From: a virus
Direction: 5' to 3' (one strand)
Virus record (IMG/VR): IMGVR_UViG_3300043099_000007
Location: 1 to 21,940 of that record
DNA length: 21,940 nucleotides
In this document: positions 3,247 to 21,940 of the stretch, piece after piece
Layout of the letters: the number at the start of each line of letters is the position of its first letter
Numbering within the stretch: the first letter of the stretch is position 1
Made by a program: the position numbers and the translations under genes
The notes under the pieces: generated by a model
Told to the model about the DNA's origin: nothing
The model's database searches: none
What the model saw: only the letters and a program-made list of their open reading frames with translations

Positions 3247-4009
3247 AGCGATACGTCTTATCCGCAGTCGAGTTCGCAAAATGACTGATCGTTGCCTGAC
3301 CGTATCCTATGGATGACGCATACACATCAGATGTGGATGACTCGTCGACCTTGTTGGCAGTCACAATGACACTCGGTGTCGCTGGTCTTGTCGGAGTGGT
3401 CTGCGCTGCAAGATGCTCAATCACCACCAAAGTGCTTGTCGTCGCCCACATGACCTGGATGTAGTCGTTGGCAACAACTTCCACATAAAAGTTCAGAGAC
3501 GCAATCAGGTGACCGTCTGTGCCGCCATGACTGTTTGGAACCGAAAACTTGGAGTTGCTGTTTGCAATGTCAGTACCGTTCTTCCTGAACCAAACATCCA
3601 CATCCTGGATCTGTACATCATCGTTTGCAAACTGAATCGAAAACTGAATGTTGTAGACACCAGCAGTCTCAAACGTGATCCTGGAGTTGCTGACAACACT
3701 GATGCCTTTGGAAAAGTCAGTCGTGTTGTAGGTGACAGCATATGCCGTTGTCGTGTTGGCAGCAGCCTGATCTGTTGAGTCAGAAAACGATCCAAACGGA
3801 ACAGGATCAGCCATCGCCGCAGCAGACGATGGCATCAGCAGAATCAAGCTCTCAGGACTGATCCGAGCGTCATACAACGTCGTAGACGTAGCATCACCAG
3901 TCGCCAGAGTGACATAGCCGAGACTGTTGATCTTGCCATCCAGCACACGATTGACAATCTCAGCAACCTCTCGCTGACTACCACCCTGCTGAGGCAACCT
4001 GCGAAACAT
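3230..4009 (-). CDS. Phage structural protein with C-terminal jelly-roll-like region
   Basis: 259 residues from ATG 4009, which shares one base with the upstream TGA (TGATG), indicating coupled translation. The N-terminus (FRRLPQQGGSQREVAEIVNR) is a helical head typical of small podophage tail-associated proteins. Residues about 28-65 form a short beta region (YVTLATGDATSTTLYDARI...LILLMP). The C-terminal part, about residues 90-190, has the features of a C1q/TNF-like jelly roll seen in phage fibres: SNSRITFETAGVYNIQFS, then DVDVWFRKNGTDIANSNSKF, then LNFYVEVVANDYIQVMW. It follows the gp10-like gene, so it is probably a tail- or collar-associated protein carrying a receptor- or sugar-binding domain. 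The exact role is inferred. Confidence 0.75.
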   Translation of the reverse strand: MFRRLPQQGGSQREVAEIVNRVLDGKINSLGYVTLATGDATSTTLYDARISPESLILLMPSSAAAMADPVPFGSFSDSTDQAAANTTTAYAVTYNTTDFSKGISVVSNSRITFETAGVYNIQFSIQFANDDVQIQDVDVWFRKNGTDIANSNSKFSVPNSHGGTDGHLIASLNFYVEVVANDYIQVMWATTSTLVVIEHLAAQTTPTRPATPSVIVTANKVDESSTSDVYASSIGYGQATISHFANSTADKTYRYVVLG

Positions 4010-5430
4010 CAGCGACCACCAACAGGAACAATGTCCACATCAATCCCAACAGCAGTGTCGTAGTTCCCTGTCGGGGTGATACTCAGACGATGGTAGTTTC
4101 CTCGAGATCGTAGACTCACCCGGTTCTCGCTATCAGCAGCAACCGCTGTAGAGTAGCTTATAGCCCCGTCCAAGCGTTTTCTGCTTGCGACTGATACCGT
4201 AGCACTACCGTTGTCAATCTGTGGCCTAGCAAGCCTTATAAGCGTTTCCTGGCCTTCTACGGTGATGTCACCTGTGTTGATCGTTCCAGTCAGATCAGAT
4301 CCAGCAAAGGTCACAATCCTGGCCCCGGATACACCACCCAGGATCAGTTTGCCACCAGTCCACAGGCGCGAATCCAGAGAGGCTGGCAGCGCATCCAGAC
4401 TAGCTGAGATATTGTCCAACTGCTCCAAAGTAGTAGACGCAGTGGCAATGCTGGAGATGTAGTCCGCACCAGAGTCACCGTGTGACCAACGATCTGTTGA
4501 CCAGTTGTAGATCAGGAGCTTCTGGACGTTGAAAATGTCCCGGAAGCACCACAGAACCAGTTTGTTGACCGGATCTACAGCAGCACTCATCTTGCTGAAC
4601 TGAGATGGATCTGCGTTAGCGTAAAACCACCTATCAACCCTCTCTGCTCCGATAGGCTTGACCTGCTGACCATCGGTCATAAAGAACCCGTCATCGCTCA
4701 GGAAGAACGTCATCGGGCCATATTGAGCAATCGACCGAGACTCGTAACAGCCTACGTTTCGAGCAATGTTGTCGAACTGGAAGAACAACGGTGCGCCGAT
4801 GTAGGTCATGCGATACAGACCACGTTCCATCAGCACGACACCAAACTCACCTCCGGTGATACCGCGAATCTCACCACCGTCAGGAATGTCCTGCGTGTCG
4901 GATTGGCTGGCAGCACCAGGAGTCCAGTCGGTTTCATCATTTATGTCCGACCAGAGTACACGGTTAGGATAAGTTGCGGTTTTGCCAGCGACAACAAAGT
5001 CCCGCACAACGGTCACAAACGATGCAGTAGGAGCAGCAGCAGCAAGGTCAGCAAACCTTGTGCTGGATGCCATGTTCCATGCTTGGAGTTTGTCAACACC
5101 GTTGGACGCAATCACCTGAGATCCAAACTGAGTGAACTGCCAAAAGTCAGTTGTGGAGTAAGCAGTCGGAGTCCTGGAAACATCATCCAGATCAGCGTCA
5201 GCAGGATCGAACTTGAACAGTTTGCCAGCACCAGCAGCAAACAGCGTGGTAGCGCCAGCCCATCGGCCAGGAAACACCGTCAGCAGATTCTCACTAGCAG
5301 CATCAGACAGGTTAGCTGTTCCATTCAGCGATCCATACCCTGATGCTGTAGGAAGCACATTCTTGGCCTCTGTCAGGTTTCCTGCAACACCAGGACGGTC
5401 AGGCGTCCATTGACCAAACACCACTCTCAT
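4009..5430 (-). CDS. P22 gp10-like tail hub / packaged-DNA stabilisation protein
   Basis: 473 residues from ATG 5430. This start forms an ATGA overlap with the previous stop; a TTG four codons upstream is less likely. The protein is beta-rich with repeated short strands and Trp/Phe-containing turns, consistent with a propeller-like fold. Recognisable stretches are the N-terminal RPGVAGNLTEAKNVLPTASG (14-33 if Met5430 is 1, about), FTQFGSQVIASNGVDKLQ, NRVLWSDINDETDWTPG, ERGLYRMTYIGAPLFFQFD and GPMTFFLSDDGFFMTDG. These resemble the gp10 family of tail proteins that closes the portal-adaptor channel in P22-like phages. The position downstream of the adaptor gene supports this. It likely acts in the short tail. 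Family assignment is from memory of sequence style, not from a search. Confidence 0.7.
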   Translation of the reverse strand: MRVVFGQWTPDRPGVAGNLTEAKNVLPTASGYGSLNGTANLSDAASENLLTVFPGRWAGATTLFAAGAGKLFKFDPADADLDDVSRTPTAYSTTDFWQFTQFGSQVIASNGVDKLQAWNMASSTRFADLAAAAPTASFVTVVRDFVVAGKTATYPNRVLWSDINDETDWTPGAASQSDTQDIPDGGEIRGITGGEFGVVLMERGLYRMTYIGAPLFFQFDNIARNVGCYESRSIAQYGPMTFFLSDDGFFMTDGQQVKPIGAERVDRWFYANADPSQFSKMSAAVDPVNKLVLWCFRDIFNVQKLLIYNWSTDRWSHGDSGADYISSIATASTTLEQLDNISASLDALPASLDSRLWTGGKLILGGVSGARIVTFAGSDLTGTINTGDITVEGQETLIRLARPQIDNGSATVSVASRKRLDGAISYSTAVAADSENRVSLRSRGNYHRLSITPTGNYDTAVGIDVDIVPVGGR

Positions 5431-6131
5431 TGTGTCGTCCAAGTATTCGATCCGGTTGCCTTTGGCGTCCAGACATCAGAGCCAGGAACAACATCCGTCC
5501 ACACATTAGCCTCATCATCAGGGTTGCTCCACACACCAGTGAGTGTAACAGTCCCGACAGAAGTTGTCGCTTGCAAACCAGTGACATATAGATAATTGTT
5601 GCTCTCTAAAGTGATCGTCCCTAGAACAGTCGTCCCTTGAACACCAGTAACAGGAACAACAACTAGAACAGTAACCGTACCAATTTGACCTGTTGCCGAT
5701 ACACCAGTCAGAGCAACAACCGCATCAGCAGTTACAACTACAGAACCAACAAGTCCAGATGCTGATACACCTGTTAAATCAACAAAAACGTTGATCGCAA
5801 CAACAACAGAACCGACATCACCGTTAGCAGACACCCCAGTAACTGACGCTACTGCTTCAGCAGCGACAGTCACAAACCCAACTTGACCAGTAGCCTCTAG
5901 CCCCGTAACAAGAACATCGGCTCCTGCTACGATAGCAACAACACCGACTTGTCCGGTGGCTTCTATGCCTGTGACGGATACATCCGCACCTGCGGCAACC
6001 GCTACCGTCCCAACAGATCCGGTGGCAGACACGCCCGTGACATTGACAGTAACACCACCACCGGGAGAAGCCTCAAACAGCCAGCCGAGACTGCCGTTGT
6101 TGGTGGAATTAGTGCCAGCGTACCAAGTCAT
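5427..6131 (-). CDS. Tail-associated protein of tandem ~22-residue beta repeats
   Basis: 234 residues from ATG 6131, in an ATGA overlap with the fibre gene stop. A short N-terminal cap (MTWYAGTNSTNNGSLGWLF) precedes eight tandem units. Each has a (V/L)TG followed by three residues, then (T/N/S)G-x-(V/I)G-x-V-x-V. The TG-containing triplets start at residues 31, 53, 75, 97, 119, 141, 161 and 183, so the period is 22 except for one 20-residue unit. The regular hydrophobic/Gly pattern suggests a beta-helix or beta-solenoid shaft. The C-terminal tail is Trp-rich (NVWTDVVPG, DVWTPKA, NTWTTQ), a kind of ending often seen on phage tail proteins. It lies between the large fibre gene and the gp10-like gene, so it is probably part of the fibre or spike complex. 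No enzymatic motif is present. Confidence 0.8.
   Translation of the reverse strand: MTWYAGTNSTNNGSLGWLFEASPGGGVTVNVTGVSATGSVGTVAVAAGADVSVTGIEATGQVGVVAIVAGADVLVTGLEATGQVGFVTVAAEAVASVTGVSANGDVGSVVVAINVFVDLTGVSASGLVGSVVVTADAVVALTGVSATGQIGTVTVLVVVPVTGVQGTTVLGTITLESNNYLYVTGLQATTSVGTVTLTGVWSNPDDEANVWTDVVPGSDVWTPKATGSNTWTTQ
5540..6041 (-). repeat. Eight tandem ~66-bp coding repeats (22-residue VTG units)
   Basis: At protein level the unit is (V/L)TGxxATGxVGxVxV plus a variable linker. Seven of eight spacings are exactly 22 residues apart except the 141-to-161 step, which is 20. At DNA level the copies are diverged (for example 'acaccagtcagagcaac' and 'acacctgttaaatcaac' at equivalent positions). 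The array is therefore old or under selection for protein shape rather than freshly duplicated. Confidence 0.85.
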
Positions 6132-9100
6132 AGCGGATATGCCCTGACACCAGTGATTGTCAAATAATTTACATCAGCGGCAGTCCCCGATCCAGTAAAA
6201 ACAAGCGTCCCAGGCGAAGCAGCAGATGTACCTTGTACAGTCAGGATGTTTCCTGCTGTACCAGTAGCAGTCCACGATGTAGTGATCCGCTGGGTAGTCG
6301 TGCCGATGTTGATTGTGTTTGCACCAGCAGCGGTGCTGCTAATCGTTTTGAACGTGTTGTTGCTAAAGAGTGTCAAAGTACCAGCACCGCCTTGGTTTAA
6401 CGTGATGTTGGTGTAGGCAACACCACCGCCAACGAAGATCTTAGCCGAAGCAGAGGTCAGAGAGATTGTGCCGGTGCCGGTGACGGTGAGGTTGGTGGAG
6501 GTGGCTGTGTCCCATCCTCCTGTTCCTGCTAAAACCCATGTTCCAGAACCTATGGCAATGGTTCTAGTGTTAGAGTTAGTAGATGAAAAACCGCTTGACG
6601 CGCCAGATAAAGTTACGTTAAACCCATCAGCATCAAAAGTTCCTGCGGTTACTGTAAAAGCAAAGCCTGCGCTTCTGTCGCAAACAAAAGCATCTTGCAA
6701 CGTTACAGAACCTCCTGGGCTATCAATGATAAAACTCTGCGTAAAAGTCTTGCCAGCGCTCGTAATCGTTTGACTGCCTCGGCCAGCAAACGTAAGTGAT
6801 GCAGTGCCACTCAGCGTTGTACCAGTGCCATTGATTAAGTTGCCACAAACTAGGTTTGTGAAGGTTGACGTCATCGCAAGCGTCACCGTATTGCTTGTCC
6901 GAAGGGACATGTCAATCGTGCCAATATTGTATGCTCGGCTAATTGTGATTGTGCTGCCAGATGCTGGATACGTTGCCGCAGGAAAGATGACTGTATCTTG
7001 AGCGAGTGGGAACTGTGTAATATCGGCTGCGCCGCCAGATGTTGCTGACCAGCCGGTAGAAGAGTCCCAGGAATCTGATCCGGTCGAGCGAACATAAACG
7101 GTTTTTGGTGATGGAAATGTAATTCCACTATTGCCTTTTACATCACCTAGTCGAGTCCCAGAGATCGGAGCCGCTGCTCCGGTGACAGTGATGTCTCGGA
7201 AGTCTACGTCAGTCCCAGAGAACGCGGCGACGGTCAGTGTGCGGGTTGTACCAATAATGTCAGATCTAATAAACCGTCTATATGCAGCATTTGTGCCCGC
7301 AGAAAAAGTCAAAGTGCCAGTGATGGTTTGATTTGCGGTAAGCGTTATCTGGTTTAGACCAAGAGCAGTTAAACCAGAAAAAGACAAGTTGTTGAAGCTG
7401 TTTGCACCGTTGATCGTGGTGGCTCCGGCACTGGTCTCGGTAAAGCTGACGTTGTAGAAGGTCTGGTTGTTGCCAGAGAATGTTGGGCCGTTGGCAGAGA
7501 GGTTTATTTGTGAAGTGCCTGCTGTGACAGTTAGATTAGCTCGGTTGGTTTCTGTGGTGCCGAAATTGATTGGCGCAGCACCAGAAAGTTGAGTGGTTCC
7601 TGTACCAAAATCAATTGTTCTGGAATTTCCATTGTTTGAAACTATTTGTGACGCAGTTAAATTGTAAGTTGCAAGGTCAATTGATCCATTGTTAACCGTC
7701 AGCGCTGACGACGATCCCATATCCAACGCACTGCCAAGCGCCCAGGCGCAATCAACACCATTTATCGTTATATCACTCGCCAGCGTCACTGCATTTGTCG
7801 TAAACGTCAATCCCGTCGAGTTGCTTGATAGCGTCATCCCTCCGGTATACGTCCTCGTCAGCCCCGTAGCAGGCAGCGTCACGTTGCCATGTATACCGAC
7901 CATCGCAGTCGTTCCGGCAAGCGTCACGTTACCCGATGCTGGGCCAGCAATCGTGAGCGACTTCATGCGAATCCCGCCAGTTACGGCGTTCACCGTAGCG
8001 GTATAGGCTGTGGCATTAGAGCTTGAGTCGAACACTACGTCGTCGTGGCTGCGGGGTACAGAAGCACCAGAACCCCCACCTGAACCAGTAGACCATCTCG
8101 CGGTGTCTGACCAGTTGCCCGTACCGCCAACCCAGTAGCGTGTGGAGTCTGCGGGTTTAGCGGTGCGGTAGACAGGCGCTCCAGCGGTTCCTGTGCTGTT
8201 GGCTCCAGCATAGAACTCACCGGGGCTTGTGGCTGCGAAGCCAATGCTGCCCATTGCAAGGTAATCAATGCCCGAGGTGCAAGCACCAGCAAGGATGTGG
8301 CTAGTGCCAGTGCCGGTGAGGGTGACTACGTTGCCTGCGCTGCCTGTAACCGTCCACTTGCCAAAAGTCTGAGTTGTGGAGCCAAGAGCAATGGTGTGGG
8401 CTACGGTTTTAGTGCTAGCTAGTTCAGTGAACTGGAAATTATTCTCTAATGTTAATGTTGATGTGCCTGTTGTGCCGCCAATAGTTAATTTGTTATATGA
8501 CGACGCGACAGTTGTTGCCGTAAATGTTCTTGCGGACGAACTTGTATCAGACAGAACAATATTGGCCGTTCCTTTGTAAAAGTTTAAAGTGCCGCCAACA
8601 TTCCACACGGTGCCAGTTCCAGAAAGCGTCCAAGTACCGGAACCCATCTTTACCGTTCCGGGTGTAGTCGATGATGGATTAAATAGAACGAGTCCTGTCG
8701 TCACGTTATAACTAACCGCATCAAACGTTCCAGAATCAAGACGCAAGGTATGAGAGCTGTTTATTGATAACGCATCAGCTAGTTGCACCGTACCATTTAC
8801 AGTACCTAATACAAGTGTTGTACCAAAAGAAACCCCATTACTTGTTATTGTTTGCGTTCCTCTTTTTCTAAAAAAATAGCCGCCCGTAGCAACACTAGAT
8901 GTAACGCCTGTTCCAAATTTCCAATCTCCATATATTTCTGGGCTATTTGTAGAACCGTTTAACGTCATCGCACTTGTTCTTGCACTGGCATCAAACGTGC
9001 CGATGTTCCACGCAGCATTGATCGTGATTGTTCCCGTCACGCTGTTTACTGCTTCATCAAACACCGCCGTGTCTTGTGCGAGCGGGAAGTTGTTTATGTC

Positions 9101-11173
9101 CGGTACTCCACCAGTGCCGGGTGCCCAAGCCGTAGCACTCCAGTTCTGAGCGCCAGCGAGGTTCCAATAAACGGTCTTGGCCGCAGGGAACGTAATCCCA
9201 GAGTTCCCACCGCAGTCACCTGCTCGGGTGGGCGATGATCCTGCTGCTGTACCTGCGATAGTGATGTCTCGGAAGTCGCAGTCTGTTGCGGAGAGAGTGC
9301 CTACGGTAAGAGTGCGGGTAGTTCCGAGGGTATCTGAGCGGACAAAGATGCGACGGATTGGCGATGCTCCGGCGACGGTGAGGGTGCCGGTGATGGTTTG
9401 ATTATCACTAATATTTACAAATCTAAACCCAGCGCTTGCTGGGGCAGTAATTGTTAAATTATTAAAAGTGTTAGCCCTGTTAAATGAAGATGCGCCGCTT
9501 GCTGCGCTGCTAGTTATTGCAACATCGTAAAAAGTTTGCCCACCACCTGAAAACGCCTGGCCTATTGTCCCCGTACAAGATATTGTCGATGTTCCGGCAT
9601 TAAAAGTAAGGTTTGTGCTAATAGTGAATATTAGGTTAGTACTTAACGTCACCGTACTCGACCCAAGCGTAATCGTCCTGATGTTTGAGTTACTAGACGA
9701 TAGCGATCCAGCCGTGACATTAAAGTTCTTGGTGTCAAACGTGCCGTTGGTAACGGTGAGGGTTTGTGACCCAATGTTCAGGGCATCAGCAAGCTCGACT
9801 GTGCCGCTGTAGGAGTCAACCGTAATGCCGCCGCTAAATGTCTTGCCTGCGCTGGTGATGGTTTGCGTGTTACGGCCAGAGAACATCAAGGTGTTTGCAG
9901 TGCTTAATGTGGTTCCAGAACCGTTTTTCCAGTCGCCATAAATCGTAAACGCTGCGCCAATTGCCAGCGTCATGGCACTCGTGCGACCGGACATATCCAC
10001 CGTCCCTGTGTAGGGAACAGCAGAGTTCATCGTTATCGTGCCCGTCACCGAACCTGCGTTTGTGAACGTAGCGGTGTCCTGCGCGAGTGGAAAGAAGTTA
10101 GTGTTTGGCGTACCTGTGCTTGTATCCGACCATCCGTTTGCCGACCAGTTCTGTGCGCCAGCAAGATTCCAATACACCGTCTTAGGCGTACTGAACGTGA
10201 TCCCACGGATGCCACGCAAGTCACCAATCCTAGTACCTGAGATCGGCGCAGCAGTGCCGATAACGTAGATGTCCCGGAAGTCTGCGTCTGTCAGACTCGG
10301 TGTGGCGTTGATGGTGAGAGTTTGGGCTAGACCGTAGGTAGCTCCACGAAACCAGACTCGGCGGTTGCCTGCGGTGCCTGTTGTGGACAGTGTGCCGTTG
10401 ATGGTTTGGCGGGAGTCAAAGGTTATCGGCGTCACACCAGCGGATGCGGAAGCGGTTACAGATAAATTGTTAAACGTGTTTGCGCCTGTGATTGCTGCTC
10501 CACCCGCATTGGTGCTGGTGAAAGCTACATTATAAAAAGTTTGACCCCCGCCGTTAAAAACTATTCCGTTTCCCGATGTGTTTATTTGCGATGTTCCAGA
10601 AGTAAAAGTAAGCCCGGTGCTGGTGGCAAAATCAATTGAACCGGTTAACGTTACCGTGCTTGATCCTAAATTTATGGCTCGTGTGTTTGAATTTGATGAC
10701 GCTAAAGTGGCGGCATTTACGTTGTATCCGTTGGTATTAAATGTACCTTGAGTAACAGTTATAGACCCGCCAGAACGTACCGTAACTGCATCTCCTAGCG
10801 CAACCGTAATTCCAGAGCCAGCAACAGTAAAGTTAGTAAAAGTTTTACCAGCAGTTATAAGTGTGCTCGTACCTGTGATTGTTGCGGTGCCTGTGTGCGT
10901 ATAAGTCATTCCGGCAACAAGAGTCACACTACCTGCAATAGTAATATTTGCACTACCCGCAATCGTTCCCGTGAACCCCGTACAGTTGATTGACTTAGCC
11001 CCGGTATTGCCGGTGCTGATCGTGCAAGTACCGGTTGAGGCGGCATCAAAGAACACATCATCCGCGCTCGTAGGCACAGACGCGCCACCAGCACCACCGG
11101 ACGTTGTTGACCACTTAGTACCAGCGGTGCCATCCCAGTTCGCCGTACCACCGACCCAATAGCGATCTGCCAC
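6128..11173 (-). CDS. Giant modular beta-rich tail fibre/spike protein
   Basis: 1681 residues, starting at GTG 11173 with AGGGTG seven bases upstream and a start two bases after the previous TAA; no ATG competes. The protein is almost entirely Thr/Ser/Gly/Val/Asn, with low charge, as in beta-helical fibres and surface proteins. It divides into five modules of about 325-345 residues beginning at residues 4, 331, 666, 1012 and 1357. Each begins with a Tyr-Trp block (RYWVGGTANW, KTVYWNLAGAQNW, KTVYWNLAGAQNW, RYWVGGTGNW, and KTVYVRSTG). Shared inner motifs include FPLAQDT, TQTITS.GK, GQTFY and (C/V)DFRDI. Modules 3 and 5 share a terminal type of ending (ALGSTTQTFGKWTVTGSAGN and NIGTTTQRITTSWTATGTAGN). 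It likely forms the long fibre contacting the host surface. No lyase or glycosidase residues could be assigned. Confidence 0.85.
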   Translation of the reverse strand: MADRYWVGGTANWDGTAGTKWSTTSGGAGGASVPTSADDVFFDAASTGTCTISTGNTGAKSINCTGFTGTIAGSANITIAGSVTLVAGMTYTHTGTATITGTSTLITAGKTFTNFTVAGSGITVALGDAVTVRSGGSITVTQGTFNTNGYNVNAATLASSNSNTRAINLGSSTVTLTGSIDFATSTGLTFTSGTSQINTSGNGIVFNGGGQTFYNVAFTSTNAGGAAITGANTFNNLSVTASASAGVTPITFDSRQTINGTLSTTGTAGNRRVWFRGATYGLAQTLTINATPSLTDADFRDIYVIGTAAPISGTRIGDLRGIRGITFSTPKTVYWNLAGAQNWSANGWSDTSTGTPNTNFFPLAQDTATFTNAGSVTGTITMNSAVPYTGTVDMSGRTSAMTLAIGAAFTIYGDWKNGSGTTLSTANTLMFSGRNTQTITSAGKTFSGGITVDSYSGTVELADALNIGSQTLTVTNGTFDTKNFNVTAGSLSSSNSNIRTITLGSSTVTLSTNLIFTISTNLTFNAGTSTISCTGTIGQAFSGGGQTFYDVAITSSAASGASSFNRANTFNNLTITAPASAGFRFVNISDNQTITGTLTVAGASPIRRIFVRSDTLGTTRTLTVGTLSATDCDFRDITIAGTAAGSSPTRAGDCGGNSGITFPAAKTVYWNLAGAQNWSATAWAPGTGGVPDINNFPLAQDTAVFDEAVNSVTGTITINAAWNIGTFDASARTSAMTLNGSTNSPEIYGDWKFGTGVTSSVATGGYFFRKRGTQTITSNGVSFGTTLVLGTVNGTVQLADALSINSSHTLRLDSGTFDAVSYNVTTGLVLFNPSSTTPGTVKMGSGTWTLSGTGTVWNVGGTLNFYKGTANIVLSDTSSSARTFTATTVASSYNKLTIGGTTGTSTLTLENNFQFTELASTKTVAHTIALGSTTQTFGKWTVTGSAGNVVTLTGTGTSHILAGACTSGIDYLAMGSIGFAATSPGEFYAGANSTGTAGAPVYRTAKPADSTRYWVGGTGNWSDTARWSTGSGGGSGASVPRSHDDVVFDSSSNATAYTATVNAVTGGIRMKSLTIAGPASGNVTLAGTTAMVGIHGNVTLPATGLTRTYTGGMTLSSNSTGLTFTTNAVTLASDITINGVDCAWALGSALDMGSSSALTVNNGSIDLATYNLTASQIVSNNGNSRTIDFGTGTTQLSGAAPINFGTTETNRANLTVTAGTSQINLSANGPTFSGNNQTFYNVSFTETSAGATTINGANSFNNLSFSGLTALGLNQITLTANQTITGTLTFSAGTNAAYRRFIRSDIIGTTRTLTVAAFSGTDVDFRDITVTGAAAPISGTRLGDVKGNSGITFPSPKTVYVRSTGSDSWDSSTGWSATSGGAADITQFPLAQDTVIFPAATYPASGSTITISRAYNIGTIDMSLRTSNTVTLAMTSTFTNLVCGNLINGTGTTLSGTASLTFAGRGSQTITSAGKTFTQSFIIDSPGGSVTLQDAFVCDRSAGFAFTVTAGTFDADGFNVTLSGASSGFSSTNSNTRTIAIGSGTWVLAGTGGWDTATSTNLTVTGTGTISLTSASAKIFVGGGVAYTNITLNQGGAGTLTLFSNNTFKTISSTAAGANTINIGTTTQRITTSWTATGTAGNILTVQGTSAASPGTLVFTGSGTAADVNYLTITGVRAYPL
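6131..11164 (-). repeat. Five ~1-kb imperfect direct repeats inside the fibre gene
   Basis: Approximate module boundaries on DNA are 11164-10184, 10183-9179, 9178-8141, 8140-7106 and 7105-6131, derived from the positions of the RYWVGG and KTVY blocks. Several short DNA stretches are still nearly identical between modules, for example 'gatgtctcggaagtc' near 9262 and 7190 against 'gatgtcccggaagtc' near 10268, and 'gatggtttgatt' near 9391 and 7322. Confidence 0.85.
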
Positions 11174-11175
11174 GG

Positions 11176-11448
11176 TTACACCCTATAGAACCAAACACCA
11201 TCGATTTCAACGAGTTTAGCTCCAGAGGGCGGGACTCCTTCTAGCTTTTGATAGACCTCACCACCAATCTCCTTGGTGGTTTCCGGCTGTTCTACGGGCG
11301 GTGCAGTGACGACAGCAATCCAGTTATCCCGGCGCTGTTCTTTCATCGCCTGGATCTCTGCCTCGGTGAAGGTGTGATCTTCCGGCAGGTGCAGAGCGTC
11401 AGCAAACTTGCCGTGTGGCGTTTCAAACTGGAAGTCAATCTTGATCAT
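11176..11448 (-). CDS. Small conserved phage protein, function unknown
   Basis: 90 residues from ATG 11448. The SD (AGAGG) overlaps the TAA stop of the preceding gene. The protein is acidic and soluble: a beta start (MIKIDFQFETPHGKF), a helix FTEAEIQAMKEQRRDNWI (about 28-45), a Pro-rich linker (APPVEQPETT), and a C-terminal beta pair (AKLVEIDGVWFYRV). No catalytic motif is visible. Its place directly before the giant fibre gene suggests a fibre-assembly chaperone or a connector part, but this is only a guess from position. Its reading frame is clean and well spaced on both sides. Confidence 0.75.
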   Translation of the reverse strand: MIKIDFQFETPHGKFADALHLPEDHTFTEAEIQAMKEQRRDNWIAVVTAPPVEQPETTKEIGGEVYQKLEGVPPSGAKLVEIDGVWFYRV

Positions 11449-11883: not shown

Positions 11884-12504
11884 TTACCTCTTCTGAACTG
11901 TCATAACCATAGGATTGCCAGAATACTCTGCCTGCTCATCCGATACAGTGAGATCCTGCAAAGACCGCTGAAACAATGCCGCCCATGTCTGAATCCTGGC
12001 ATCATTCATCAGATATGGCTCTGCTTCTGTCAGCGCACCATAAAGCAGAAGATCAGGACAAACACTCGTAAATGTGTTCGTGCTTGTGCTGTCACTCAAA
12101 AACGTCGGCGCAGCGTAATACAACATCCACAGCGTGTAGTTGCTGTCTGCCACAGGAGCAAACTGCATTTCCTCTGACAGGATGGTGTAGGCGACAGGCT
12201 TGCCGCTCTCAGTCACCCGCGCATTCCTGGTGAACGAAGCAGGAGACAGGTATCCGATGGGGATCTCTGGATTGCCATCCAGATACAGGTTACGCATCTG
12301 GAGGAAGTCGCTTGGCAGACCGACAGTGCTATCACCACCAGTCATCGTCGTGCTAGACAGCTTTAGCATCTCGCGGATGCGAAGCTGCCTCCGCAGACGG
12401 ATCTCAGCCAGCCGGATAAAGTCAGGGATCTGGCTACTTAGATCGCTTCTTGCGAGATAGTTTGCGACTGCTGTTTTCAGGTCGCTGTAGGTTGCTAGGG
12501 CCAT
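11884..12504 (-). CDS. P22 gp4-like head-to-tail adaptor
   Basis: 206 residues from ATG 12504. The start lies inside the upstream glycosyltransferase gene, with only a weak SD (AAAG). N-terminal helices with TYSDLKTAVANYLARSDL and IPDFIRLAEIRLRRQLRIRE (about 26-45) are characteristic of the gp4-type adaptor family that binds beneath the portal ring. A beta region (LKLSSTTM...VGLPSDFLQMRNLYLDG) and a C-terminal helix bundle (CPDLLLYGALTEAEPYLMND, then WAALFQRSLQDLTVSDE) follow. Adaptors of this kind seal the packaged head and provide the platform for the gp10-like protein encoded downstream. The size agrees with the family. The assignment rests on visible motif style and gene order. Confidence 0.75.
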   Translation of the reverse strand: MALATYSDLKTAVANYLARSDLSSQIPDFIRLAEIRLRRQLRIREMLKLSSTTMTGGDSTVGLPSDFLQMRNLYLDGNPEIPIGYLSPASFTRNARVTESGKPVAYTILSEEMQFAPVADSNYTLWMLYYAAPTFLSDSTSTNTFTSVCPDLLLYGALTEAEPYLMNDARIQTWAALFQRSLQDLTVSDEQAEYSGNPMVMTVQKR

Positions 12505-13163: not shown

Positions 13164-13470
13164 AAACGCTTCCTGGGTAAGTCCTCCAGACTCGGTTATC
13201 AGGGTCATTCAACCAAGCCTTAAATCGTTTTTCGTCTGTCACCATGAATCCACGCATGATGCCCATCTTGTTGAGGACATCAATCACCGTGTTTGGAATC
13301 CTGGCAACATGGGTCATAACACTGTCAACCTTCTTGGTTGCAGCGTTGACCTGTCGCTTATTGGCTTCCACGATCTCAGACACATCCTGCTTAGTGGTCA
13401 GGATTACTTGATCGTCTTGCAGTGTCGCTACCGTGTAGCGAGTCTCACTGATACTGAATAAGTCTTTCAT
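13162..13470 (-). CDS. Conserved phage protein, function unknown (102 aa)
   Basis: 102 residues from ATG 13470, which overlaps the HNH stop as ATGA. A TTG five codons upstream is rejected. The N-terminal half (ETRYTVATLQDDQVILTTKQ) is beta-like. It is followed by a helix with heptad character (DVSEIVEANKRQVNAATKKVDS). The C-terminus holds IPNTVIDVLNKMGIMRGFMV and DPDNRVWRTYPGSV. No enzymatic motif is visible. It lies between major capsid/HNH and the adaptor. Removing the HNH and glycosyltransferase genes would leave capsid, this gene and adaptor adjacent, so it is probably an ancestral head or connector protein. It is likely present in relatives lacking the inserted genes; function unknown. 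Confidence 0.75.
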   Translation of the reverse strand: MKDLFSISETRYTVATLQDDQVILTTKQDVSEIVEANKRQVNAATKKVDSVMTHVARIPNTVIDVLNKMGIMRGFMVTDEKRFKAWLNDPDNRVWRTYPGSV

Positions 13471-14051
13471 GTCACATGACTCCAAGTCCTACCTATCCGC
13501 ACACCCCTGATGCAATTTGGAGACACATTAAATCGTCTTGCCAAAGCAGCGTGACTGTCTGTGCTTTGCTTGATCTGCCGCACGATTTCAGCATTGATCA
13601 GCGACTTGCCATTTCCCTCGCCGACTGGAGCAACAACACGCTTCCTGCCCTTGCGGATCATGTCCTGTGTGTTTTCTTTCGGTGTTCCAAGCGATAGATG
13701 AGACGGGTTAACGCAGCCAGGATTGTCGCAACTGTGCATGATGTGCATTCCAACTGGAATTGTTTGGCCTTTGTTAGCCAACAACCAACTGACCCTATGC
13801 ACACCTTCAGCACCTTCAGACTTCTTGCCTAGACTGATTCTGCCGTAACCGTTTGGCATCTTTTGACCAGTCCATTCCCAACATTCTTCTGGACTACGCT
13901 TATCAACTCTCATCCAGAATCGCTCTTCTAGTGGCGCTTGAGACCACTTTCTAGTTTCTGGACTGCCGTACTTCTTAACTCTCTGATAATGCTTTTGGCA
14001 GAACCCCAGAGACTTTTTCGGTTGACTACAACCTTTGACAATACAAAACAT
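13467..14051 (-). CDS. Free-standing HNH endonuclease
   Basis: 194 residues from ATG 14051, with GGGAG eight bases upstream; longer starts (ATG 14066, GTG 14090) lack an SD. An N-terminal zinc-finger-like set C3, C8, C18, H21 is followed by a Trp-rich linker (ECWEWTGQKMPNGYGRI, 57-73). The HNH core comes next: VHRVSW (H85), then MHSCDNPGCVNPSHLSLGT, with H106, C108, N110, C113, N115 and H118. This is the His-Asn-His pattern plus the Cys pair that stabilises the fold. A KENTQDMIRKGR stretch precedes a C-terminal helix-turn-helix (about 155-190, with ALARRFNVSPNCIRGVRIGRTWSHV) that probably binds DNA. All key residues are present, so it should be active. It lies between capsid and connector genes with no intron or intein signs, as expected for a homing endonuclease that spreads between phage genomes. 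Confidence 0.92.
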   Translation of the reverse strand: MFCIVKGCSQPKKSLGFCQKHYQRVKKYGSPETRKWSQAPLEERFWMRVDKRSPEECWEWTGQKMPNGYGRISLGKKSEGAEGVHRVSWLLANKGQTIPVGMHIMHSCDNPGCVNPSHLSLGTPKENTQDMIRKGRKRVVAPVGEGNGKSLINAEIVRQIKQSTDSHAALARRFNVSPNCIRGVRIGRTWSHVT

Positions 14052-14053
14052 GA

Positions 14054-14085
14054 AAGGTACTCCCATCTTTCGACAGGAGTACCTT
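14054..14085 (-). promoter_or_regulatory. 14-bp RNA hairpin with GAAA tetraloop containing the HNH gene SD
   Basis: On the minus-strand transcript, arm AAGGUACUCC plus UGUC pairs with GAUG plus GGAGUACCUU. This gives 14 consecutive pairs (two are G-U wobbles) closed by a GAAA (GNRA) tetraloop, with no bulge. The SD GGGAG of the HNH gene lies in the 3' arm, two bases before UCAUG. It starts 24 bases after the capsid gene stop. It could hide the SD, stabilise the capsid mRNA 3' end, or act as an RNase III target. A strong U-tract for a classical terminator is absent. Confidence 0.85.
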
Positions 14086-14109
14086 ATCACGCTATCAGCA
14101 CACGGTCAA

Positions 14110-19915: not shown

Positions 19916-20608
19916 CTAACGGGTCATCGGTTTCACTCGATCCTTAATCAGCCTTTCGATCTCTGGATCACCCATCTGCTCCGGTGTTGGTGCAAACAAT
20001 GCTCTCTTACGATTGTCTGTGGTTGTTGCCGGTTCAGACAAATAGTATACAGCGATTGAGTTTCTGGTTACATCAGCAGGACATTTGATTGGATCAGGCA
20101 GTCCATGCCATGAGCCTCTAGTGTCGAAGATCACTGCCCTGTTGAACTTCGGCTCAATGACCTTTGCAAGAGTTCTGCTGTCCTTGTACAGGCCCAACCC
20201 ACCACCCCAGGACGATTCCCATGCAGGAGACAGGTAAACAATAAGGTTAAGGCGACGTTGCAAATGTAGCTTTGGATGGATGTTGTAATCCAGGTGAACA
20301 TTGAGCTTCCCTCCTCTGCTGTGCTGATGCCAGCCACCACCGTGTAGTCCTTGGTCAGCGAACAGATCCTCGTCTACCATTGCCTCCAGGGACTGTGTGA
20401 ACTTGTCGCTGGTTAGCCAAGAAAAGGTTTTGTATGTCTCTGGTGGGAACTTGTGCCAGTCGTTGCAGGTTCGCTTGACCTCTAGTGGATTGTCATACCG
20501 AAACCAGCATGGATCATCTGGCTGCGGAAACTCTTCTGCTAACTGATCTGGATTGGTGAAGAAGTCATCGATCACACAATGCCAATATGGATTGTGGTTT
20601 ACGATCAT
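19916..20608 (-). CDS. 2-oxoglutarate/Fe(II)-dependent oxygenase
   Basis: 230 residues from ATG 20608, ATGA overlap with the ART-like gene. The double-stranded beta-helix signature is present: HLD iron site (H105, D107) in KLNVHLDYNIHP, a distal His (H168) in FDTRGSWHGLPDP, and a 2-oxoglutarate-binding Arg (R182) in TRNSIAVYYLS. Strand NLIVYLSPAWESSWGGGLGL (121-140) matches the family, in which a Glu often stands where the third Gly is here. The N-terminus (YWHCVIDDFFTNPDQLAEEF) fits prolyl-hydroxylase-like members. It would hydroxylate a protein side chain or other substrate using oxygen and 2-oxoglutarate. Such genes are common cargo in aquatic phages. Here it lies just before the terminase genes. 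Substrate unknown. Confidence 0.88.
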   Translation of the reverse strand: MIVNHNPYWHCVIDDFFTNPDQLAEEFPQPDDPCWFRYDNPLEVKRTCNDWHKFPPETYKTFSWLTSDKFTQSLEAMVDEDLFADQGLHGGGWHQHSRGGKLNVHLDYNIHPKLHLQRRLNLIVYLSPAWESSWGGGLGLYKDSRTLAKVIEPKFNRAVIFDTRGSWHGLPDPIKCPADVTRNSIAVYYLSEPATTTDNRKRALFAPTPEQMGDPEIERLIKDRVKPMTR

Positions 20609-21696
20609 TCGACGTTCAAGATACGCACTGCTTCTTCTTCTCCAGGGAATACAACAAAGTTGCGAGTCCCCTTTCCTTTCTGCCTAGATTGCTCATCAAA
20701 ATACTTAACACCAGGAACACCAAACTGCCTGAGTGCAGCCTCACCAGACCCGGTTTTCCCAGTCAGTGATTCCCATGTATTCAAAAACTGATTTACAGTT
20801 ACATTCGGCCCATACAATAGTGACAAATCACCACCAAGATCATCTATCGCACTTTGTGGAAGCATTGACTTAGTTTGTTGGATTGCTTCTTTTACCTGTT
20901 TTGACTGTCTGCCGATTGGCTTATCCCAGTCAATCATCTTGCCAATCATATCGTCTGGGATGTCTACTGTGTAAACAACACCAGACGCCTTTACTGGATT
21001 TAGCTTTTCTACTGAGTCAGCCAACCCAGAATATGTCCTTGCGTATTTTGACTCCCTGATTGTCTTTGCAATTGACTCAGGGTTTTCGCCCATTATTAGG
21101 TCTCTAACAATCTCGTTTGCTTTTGCCATATAAGCTGATTGCAATTGAGGCTGAACATTACCTGCGTTTTCAACCAAAGCATCAACTAGATCGCTTGATC
21201 TTAAGGGGCCAGCAGATGTTTCGTATTTATCAACAGCAGTTGTCGTTTTGTAATAATTTGCAATATCAGGGGATTCGGCAAAGTAAATCCCATGCCCATA
21301 CATTTGAGCACCCTCGCCACTTCCGATCTTGCTTGCATCAAACTTACTGAATCTGTATGGACTGCCATGATAGCCAGTCAACGCAAGCAGACCAGCTTCC
21401 GGGTTAGCCTTCATCATCTGCACAGCATCAGCCAGCAAGCTCGGAACCTGAGCAGCAGCCTTAGCACCAACGGAAAAAGCTCCTGCTGGCGCTCCGATCC
21501 CAGGCATACTGCCCAGTGCCTGACCAGTTCTGTACATATCTTCTGCCAACAATCCACCGTACTGAGGTTTGTCAAGCCCTAGATAACCTCTACCGATACC
21601 ACCAGCAATAGCAGCAAACGGCTCACCAATATTGCGCTGGTAAGCCCCGTAAGCCTGTTCTAGTCCCAATGCGCGGAGTAGCTGGCTGACATCCAT
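20605..21696 (-). CDS. Protein with ADP-ribosyltransferase-like (ART-PolyVal type) domain
   Basis: 363 residues from ATG 21696, one base after the preceding TGA; the frame extends upstream but that would cover the previous gene. Residues 1-105 are Gly/Ala-rich and helical (GEPFAAIAGGIGRGYLG, 25-41; VGAKAAAQVPSLLADAV), like internal virion proteins. From residue 109 an ART-like domain starts: GYHGSP (108-113), FDASKIGSGEGAQMYGHGIY (119-138), YFA (138-140). These match the His and Tyr of the H-Y-E type ADP-ribosyltransferases found in polyvalent phage proteins. The C-terminus FGVPGVKYFDEQSRQKGKGT...NFVVF is also typical of that group. The third acidic residue is not assigned. The probable reaction is transfer of ADP-ribose from NAD+ to an unknown target; activity is inferred. 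Confidence 0.78.
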   Translation of the reverse strand: MDVSQLLRALGLEQAYGAYQRNIGEPFAAIAGGIGRGYLGLDKPQYGGLLAEDMYRTGQALGSMPGIGAPAGAFSVGAKAAAQVPSLLADAVQMMKANPEAGLLALTGYHGSPYRFSKFDASKIGSGEGAQMYGHGIYFAESPDIANYYKTTTAVDKYETSAGPLRSSDLVDALVENAGNVQPQLQSAYMAKANEIVRDLIMGENPESIAKTIRESKYARTYSGLADSVEKLNPVKASGVVYTVDIPDDMIGKMIDWDKPIGRQSKQVKEAIQQTKSMLPQSAIDDLGGDLSLLYGPNVTVNQFLNTWESLTGKTGSGEAALRQFGVPGVKYFDEQSRQKGKGTRNFVVFPGEEEAVRILNVE

Positions 21697-21697
21697 G

Positions 21698-21940
21698 TCA
21701 CTTGCCCTTATTGCGTTCGCTGATAGCCTTAGCTTTAGCCTTAGCGTCTGCCTTGGATGACGCACCCCAGGCTCTCAGTGACAGCAGCAGACGGGTTGGC
21801 TTGCCATCCTGGTACTCTGGCCCAGGCATACCACCCATCCGAGCCAGGAATGATGCTCTGCGCGGATTGTCACCAGACTTAACAGGAGCCTTCAGGTCTG
21901 ATCCTGGATTGGCTCTTTCGTAGGACTTCCTACCAGCCTC
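21698..21940 (-). CDS. C-terminal part of a small basic phage protein (DUF6321-like)
   Basis: The frame is open from the right window edge to TGA at 21700-21698; 80 residues are visible and the 5' end is missing. The sequence has YERANPGSDLKAPV, RRASFLARMGGMPGP, DGKPTRLLLSLRAW, and a Lys/Ala tail ending in ERNKGK. The combination of K(A)PV, ASF.ARMGGM.GP and G(K/R)PTR..LSLR.W resembles a small basic domain found in many environmental phages (I recall it as DUF6321). Function unknown; a DNA- or virion-associated role is possible because of its basic charge. The coupling to the next gene (one base between stop and ATG) shows it is in the same operon. Confidence 0.72.
   Translation of the reverse strand, partial: EAGRKSYERANPGSDLKAPVKSGDNPRRASFLARMGGMPGPEYQDGKPTRLLLSLRAWGASSKADAKAKAKAISERNKGK

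Follow-up and report, generated by a model that had tools for sequence, protein, structure and literature searches.

The 21,940-nucleotide stretch of viral DNA analysed here (the window) appears to encode a two-unit, beta-helical virion fibre in which the join between the units is ancient, the final closing motif is split across two genes, and the second of these supplies a coupled docking tip protein, a reading to which we give a probability of about 0.66. By sequence, the fibre is laid out as a start cap (cap A), middle modules and a close, followed by a second cap A and a second close. Its chain stops after the strand YLTITGVRAY, and the ORF of the next protein opens at an overlapping ATG that has a Shine-Dalgarno-like site of its own. 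Termination-reinitiation would couple the synthesis of this next protein to that of the fibre. That protein would then dock at the fibre end, supplying the missing closing motif and carrying a distal or interface domain.

The fibre ORF lies at 6128..11173 on the minus strand, reading from a GTG start at 11173 to 6131, with its stop codon at 6128-6130, and encodes 1681 amino acids predicted to form five beta-helical modules of ~335 residues. The earlier note had given these coordinates correctly and without a strand. Module 1 (M1; residues 1-330, 10184..11173) carries the start-type cap A and a linking end, b; module 2 (residues 331-665, 9179..10183) has the middle cap B and the linking end b; module 3 (residues 666-1011, 8141..9178) has cap B and the terminal-type closing end, a; module 4 (residues 1012-1356, 7106..8140) returns to cap A with the linking end b, joining an M1-like front to an M2-like back; and module 5 (residues 1357-1681, 6131..7105) has cap B and a closing end cut short at ...YLTITGVRAYPL. 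All five are read on the minus strand, giving the order A-b, B-b, B-a, A-b, B-a.

The modules were compared pairwise after cutting at the boundaries of the earlier note, whole-protein self-BLAST having returned the identity match only. All ten module pairs aligned above shuffled sequences (z 7 to 44), which bears out the five starts proposed there, and the block RYWVGGT.NW is indeed confined to residues 4 and 1012. The best-matching pair is M1-M4, at 49.1% identity over 320 residues (z 44), ahead of M1-M2 at 47%, and M3 and M5 align end to end at 42.7%; the opposite outcomes, with M1 and M4 no closer than other pairs or the endings of M3 and M5 failing to align, did not occur. In a module tree built from 42 relatives, none of them as much as 80% identical to another, every module position forms its own clade, and the groupings M1+M4 and M3+M5 each have a support of 1.0. 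Quarter by quarter, the caps divide {M1,M4} from {M2,M3,M5} and the endings divide {M1,M2,M4} from {M3,M5}, with M4 resembling M1 over the first ~120 alignment columns and M2 over the last ~100. The terminal-type ending assigned to M3 and M5 thus groups the two, but in M5 it is incomplete, the rest lying on the next ORF.

The sequence that joins the two units (EFYAGANSTGTAGAPVYRTAKPADSTRYWVGGTGNWS, residues 986-1022, 8108..8218, minus strand) is a constant feature of the family. An IMG/VR search yielded 450 related stretches, of which the best 80 were kept and duplicates then removed; all 51 distinct full-length relatives in this set, 60-88% identical in pairwise matches, share the five modules of the window fibre together with its joint, EFYAGANSTGTAAAPVYRTAKPADSTRYWVGGTGNW. 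Of 116 distinct M3/M4 junctions among the matches listed, 115 run in frame from the closing motif of M3 into a start cap, the remaining one (L274) reads into the variant cap YWVNGTGNW, and all are free of stop codons at this point. By its A-b, B-b, B-a, A-b, B-a order, the window fibre belongs to the same five-module family as that of Limnohabitans phage DC31. Across the family alignment, module 1 comes in three lengths of about 335, 280 and 165 residues, while modules 2-5 are constant. Since the order is the same in all 51 relatives and DC31, and the joint is open throughout, fusion is an old, fixed trait of the fibre family as far as comparison of these sequences can tell. This contradicts any reading of the fusion as recent or specific to the window phage, for which the start-middle-end-start-end order itself would speak. 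The earlier note had also imagined two receptor-binding tips arising from such a duplication; there is no separate tip at the M3/M4 joint, M3-M4-M5 being predicted as beta throughout, and the next ORF, at the M5 end, is the sole candidate for a separate tip. A recent, lineage-specific tandem duplication giving two tips is thus the least credible of the readings weighed here, with its recency refuted by the shared order.

Complete units of this kind also occur by themselves. A further search brought up numerous phage proteins, 440-1600 residues long, that have a single N-terminal start cap and a single closing motif near the C-terminus, the latter of the form YLSIRDSNATGGAxWYAGANSTNxGNNTGWIF, and complete fibre units are thus real stand-alone phage genes. 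One of them, of 818 amino acids (L251), has exactly the two-module layout of the fibre's second half, its first module being 44% identical to M4, and in five other proteins (L207, L234, L252, L257, L269) two or three complete units are strung together, each start cap following directly on a closing motif. Looking for separate genes that start like M4 brought up this stand-alone superfamily, though not a direct separate-gene version of the fibre family itself. When genomes were scanned with a single-unit fibre, six bacterial sequences matched weakly, at 25-35% (from Saprospiraceae, Dyadobacter and others), and were of no help.

The claim of two fibre genes fused head to tail accordingly holds in that one gene contains two complete start-to-end units, of a type that exists alone and is concatenated elsewhere. 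The further suggestion that the second unit lost a middle module fits the hybrid character of M4 but is not required, because two-module units such as L251 also stand alone. The hybrid M4 fits what would be expected of a copied M1-M2-M3 without the M1/M2 join, and later conversion between modules could give the same pattern. Alternatively, no genes were fused, and a single fibre gene grew by internal duplication of modules, cap A marking any module that follows a closed one. The recurrence of tandem units in other proteins agrees with this, as do the weakly correlated pairwise module distances (0.14-0.41), with M3-M4 more closely linked than M4-M5; the modules thus recombine almost independently, so that the two halves of the fibre do not behave as two units today. 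The pairing of M1 with M4 and of M3 with M5 as whole modules over 42 relatives, together with the stand-alone units of the same layout, argues against it, and we regard growth within a single gene as unlikely, while giving it more weight than the other alternatives.

The second half of the argument concerns the end of M5. The window fibre chain ends within the closing motif of that module, and the ~17 residues missing from it, WYAGTNSTNNGSLGWLF (6075..6125, minus strand), form the N-terminal part of the next ORF. In DC31 and the other in-frame relatives the two halves are continuous, the last module ending ...YLTITGVRAYSLDTTWYAGANSTNNGSLGWYF before a short or long C-terminal part; the closing motif WYAG.NSTNNGSLGW thus stands on the C-terminus of the same chain in the in-frame class only, and on the next ORF in the window and the split class. 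The two ORFs overlap by the stop-start sequence ATGA (6128..6131, minus strand), preceded by a Shine-Dalgarno-like AGGG (6142..6145, minus strand) 10 nt before the overlapping ATG and within the GVRAY codons. The split recurs at the same place in many relatives, with overlaps of three types (ATGA, TAATG and TGATG), and the exact ATGA-type pattern is matched by 38 IMG/VR stretches.

Codon usage at this site sets the two classes apart. AGR (AGG/AGA) is the Arg codon of GVRAY at 26 of the 29 distinct split junctions and at 7 of the 45 in-frame ones (Fisher p 2e-10, ignoring relatedness), whereas elsewhere in these genes Arg is encoded by AGR in 33% (split) and 31% (in-frame) of cases. When relatedness was controlled by tree-based independent pairs of AGR against split state, the whole-length tree and that of M2 gave 6-8 to 0 (p 0.016-0.03); the trees of M3 and M5 point in the same direction, with too few independent pairs for testing. 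A Shine-Dalgarno-like 4-mer is present in 18 of 20 distinct split sequences and 6 of 36 in-frame ones. From the codon bias, the Shine-Dalgarno-like sites and the direction of the independent pairs, we conclude that the overlapping ATG is, by this comparative evidence, a real start selected as such. The stop-start spacing of -4 or -1 nt (spacing classes as in PMC12548453), combined with these sites, is that of a translationally coupled gene pair.

Programmed -1 frameshifting at the overlap, which would join both ORFs into one fused chain, is suggested by a downstream frame that is -1 in every split relative and by in-frame relatives that carry the same motif as one chain. No slippery heptamer precedes the stop in any of the 20 distinct split junctions, however, and Shine-Dalgarno-like sites are enriched exactly there; moreover, all three types belong to the ordinary stop-start overlaps (PMC12548453), and overlaps of this sort always put the second gene in the -1 frame. 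Frameshifting is accordingly improbable. It is harder still to credit that the stop at 6131 and the mosaic alleles described below are assembly or sequencing artefacts. Every relative but DC31 is a metagenome contig, and conserved module joints could mislead assembly, but the split is found in many independent contigs, in three overlap types and with codon signatures; besides, two contigs from different samples (L008 and L085) carry essentially one fibre allele, and open frames are kept in all mosaics.

The downstream ORF (5427..6131, minus strand), of 234 amino acids and beginning MTWYAGTNSTNNGSLGWLF, is thus the candidate tip protein in the preferred reading, that of coupled translation. Behind the closing motif it contains TGVSATG-type repeats (5532..6044, approximate limits, minus strand), and in one relative, L256, the closing motif is followed by the same repeats in frame with the fibre, so that the fused state is probably ancestral. 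On the module trees the split state changes 8-12 times, against a shuffled value of 12.8; the trees of M2 and M5 fall below that value, those of M1, M3 and M4 near it. The C-terminal tail of the ORF (5430..5531, minus strand) places a Trp every 10 residues (ORF residues 201, 211, 221 and 231). Its likeness to the SU10-type fibre-dock loop (gp17 W839/847/857) is one of similar spacing, with no homology shown, and we set it aside as a lead only. Among 104 distinct start-cap proteins, 18 close with a similar Trp-rich tail, and a short hydrophobic tail such as GNFFLFF or NFFLMF stands at the end of many fibres that differ in other respects (L005, L079 and L190, for example).

In the split class, several unrelated C-terminal types stand behind the common closing motif. 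The motif would therefore act as a common docking tag, and tips could be exchanged without altering the fibre. The motif is poorly predicted in a fused relative, L005 (pLDDT about 55 in a single-chain prediction), so that its docking role is no more than proposed. We accordingly advance only tentatively, and with less than even confidence, the fuller model of a beta-helical fibre closed in trans by a separate tip protein, with tips exchangeable and phages switching between the fused and split states. If true, a closing motif split at a fixed place would illustrate the way in which phages keep a conserved shaft apart from exchangeable tips, and the tips of uncultured phages could be clearly recognised by it.

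Phages with flanks 99-100% identical to those of the window differ from it in sharp blocks inside the fibre. Two of them (L004 and L006) are identical to the window through modules 1-2 and then fall to 50-80%, L006 returning to 100% near residue 1165, while L085 departs from the window in module 1 and again beyond residue ~630. An in-frame relative, L007, shares 1297 nt at 99.85% with the window fibre (residues 81-512), and the sole window backbone protein recognised in it is the nozzle-like protein, at 22% identity. The fibre and an upstream 90-aa ORF (11176..11448, minus strand) are found together in SU10-like phages (the window), in one phage with matches to a T7-type portal and capsid (L028) and in one long-tailed phage (DC31). 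In almost every relative this small ORF comes before the fibre; it reaches 98% identity between unrelated phages and could be a chaperone or attachment factor. Judged by these shared and exchanged segments, the fibre family moves among phages with different capsids and tails, its modules being swapped by recombination. The family is widespread in freshwater, mostly unannotated, present in short-tailed and long-tailed phages alike, and reshuffled module by module within near-identical phages.

By its portal (Pfam, 1e-222), major capsid (1e-97) and adaptor (2e-34) proteins, the window phage, of freshwater origin, is an SU10-like podovirus. The fibre gene lies between the gene of the SU10-type adaptor (11884..12504, minus strand; Pfam SU10_adaptor 2e-34) and that of a nozzle-like protein (4009..5442, minus strand) matching the nozzle of PDB 8zkm/8zkk at E 2e-10. 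AlphaFold2 predicts M3-M5, modelled as a single chain, as all-beta (mean pLDDT 87.7, pTM 0.79). Pfam and PHROG searches with the fibre found no family, PDB sequence and fold searches found nothing significant, and across Pfam, PHROG and PDB there is no recognisable fold or catalytic family of a pectate-lyase-like tailspike depolymerase. The best model in a viral fold library is a phage 'parallel beta-helix repeat' protein, 50% identical, and matches there are phage homologues only. The name fibre therefore rests on position, beta-helix prediction and relatives; on this basis the gene probably encodes one very long attachment fibre on the virion. By eye, three further ORFs of the window stand out: one at 13467-14090, between the major capsid and the next structural genes, is HNH-type endonuclease-like and could be a homing endonuclease; one at 20605-21765, with HGSPYRFSKFDASKIGSGEGAQMYGHGIYFAE, looks like an ADP-ribosyltransferase-type phage domain; and one at 19916-20608, upstream of the terminase genes, resembles a 2-oxoglutarate/Fe(II) oxygenase.

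Among known systems, the parallel beta-helix tailspikes of P22 and HK620 show a weak beta-helix resemblance to the window fibre that is not significant (best E 0.49), and the tailspike comparison found no catalytic or known binding domain in it. The T4-type gp37 with the gp38 adhesin of T2-like and S16 phages would be a functional parallel if the downstream ORF makes a separate protein that caps the fibre end; gp38 is not known to complete a motif found fused in relatives, as is proposed for the window protein. In Alteromonas phage A5/V22, a fibre and a small neighbouring gene are common to phages of distant families through recombination (PMC10579305), although that fibre is unrelated to the window's and has no split closing motif.

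In the Kuravirus SU10, the long tail fibre proteins gp12 and gp13, proximal and distal, are encoded directly after the adaptor gp11 (PMC9509320). Both phages thus have two consecutive genes after the adaptor, a likeness of gene position, and in SU10, unlike the window, the long fibres are separated from the nozzle by further genes. Three spaced Trp residues of the SU10 nozzle hold the trimeric fibre, which the Trp tail of the downstream ORF matches in resemblance only.

The closest known counterpart is the DC31 fibre (PQ492658.1, minus strand), which has the same five-module order at about 50% identity and an intact, in-frame closing motif. In that circular-genome record the gene is cut by the arbitrary linear ends (L002 1-4120, L003 12984-14210) and carries no single-CDS annotation, only short opposite-strand CDSs being annotated at the record start. 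DC31 differs from the window phage in being long-tailed, with a tape measure gene and a tail of 203 nm (PMC12195039), in not being SU10-like, and in its unsplit fibre; with its Limnohabitans host, it offers a culturable system for this fibre family.
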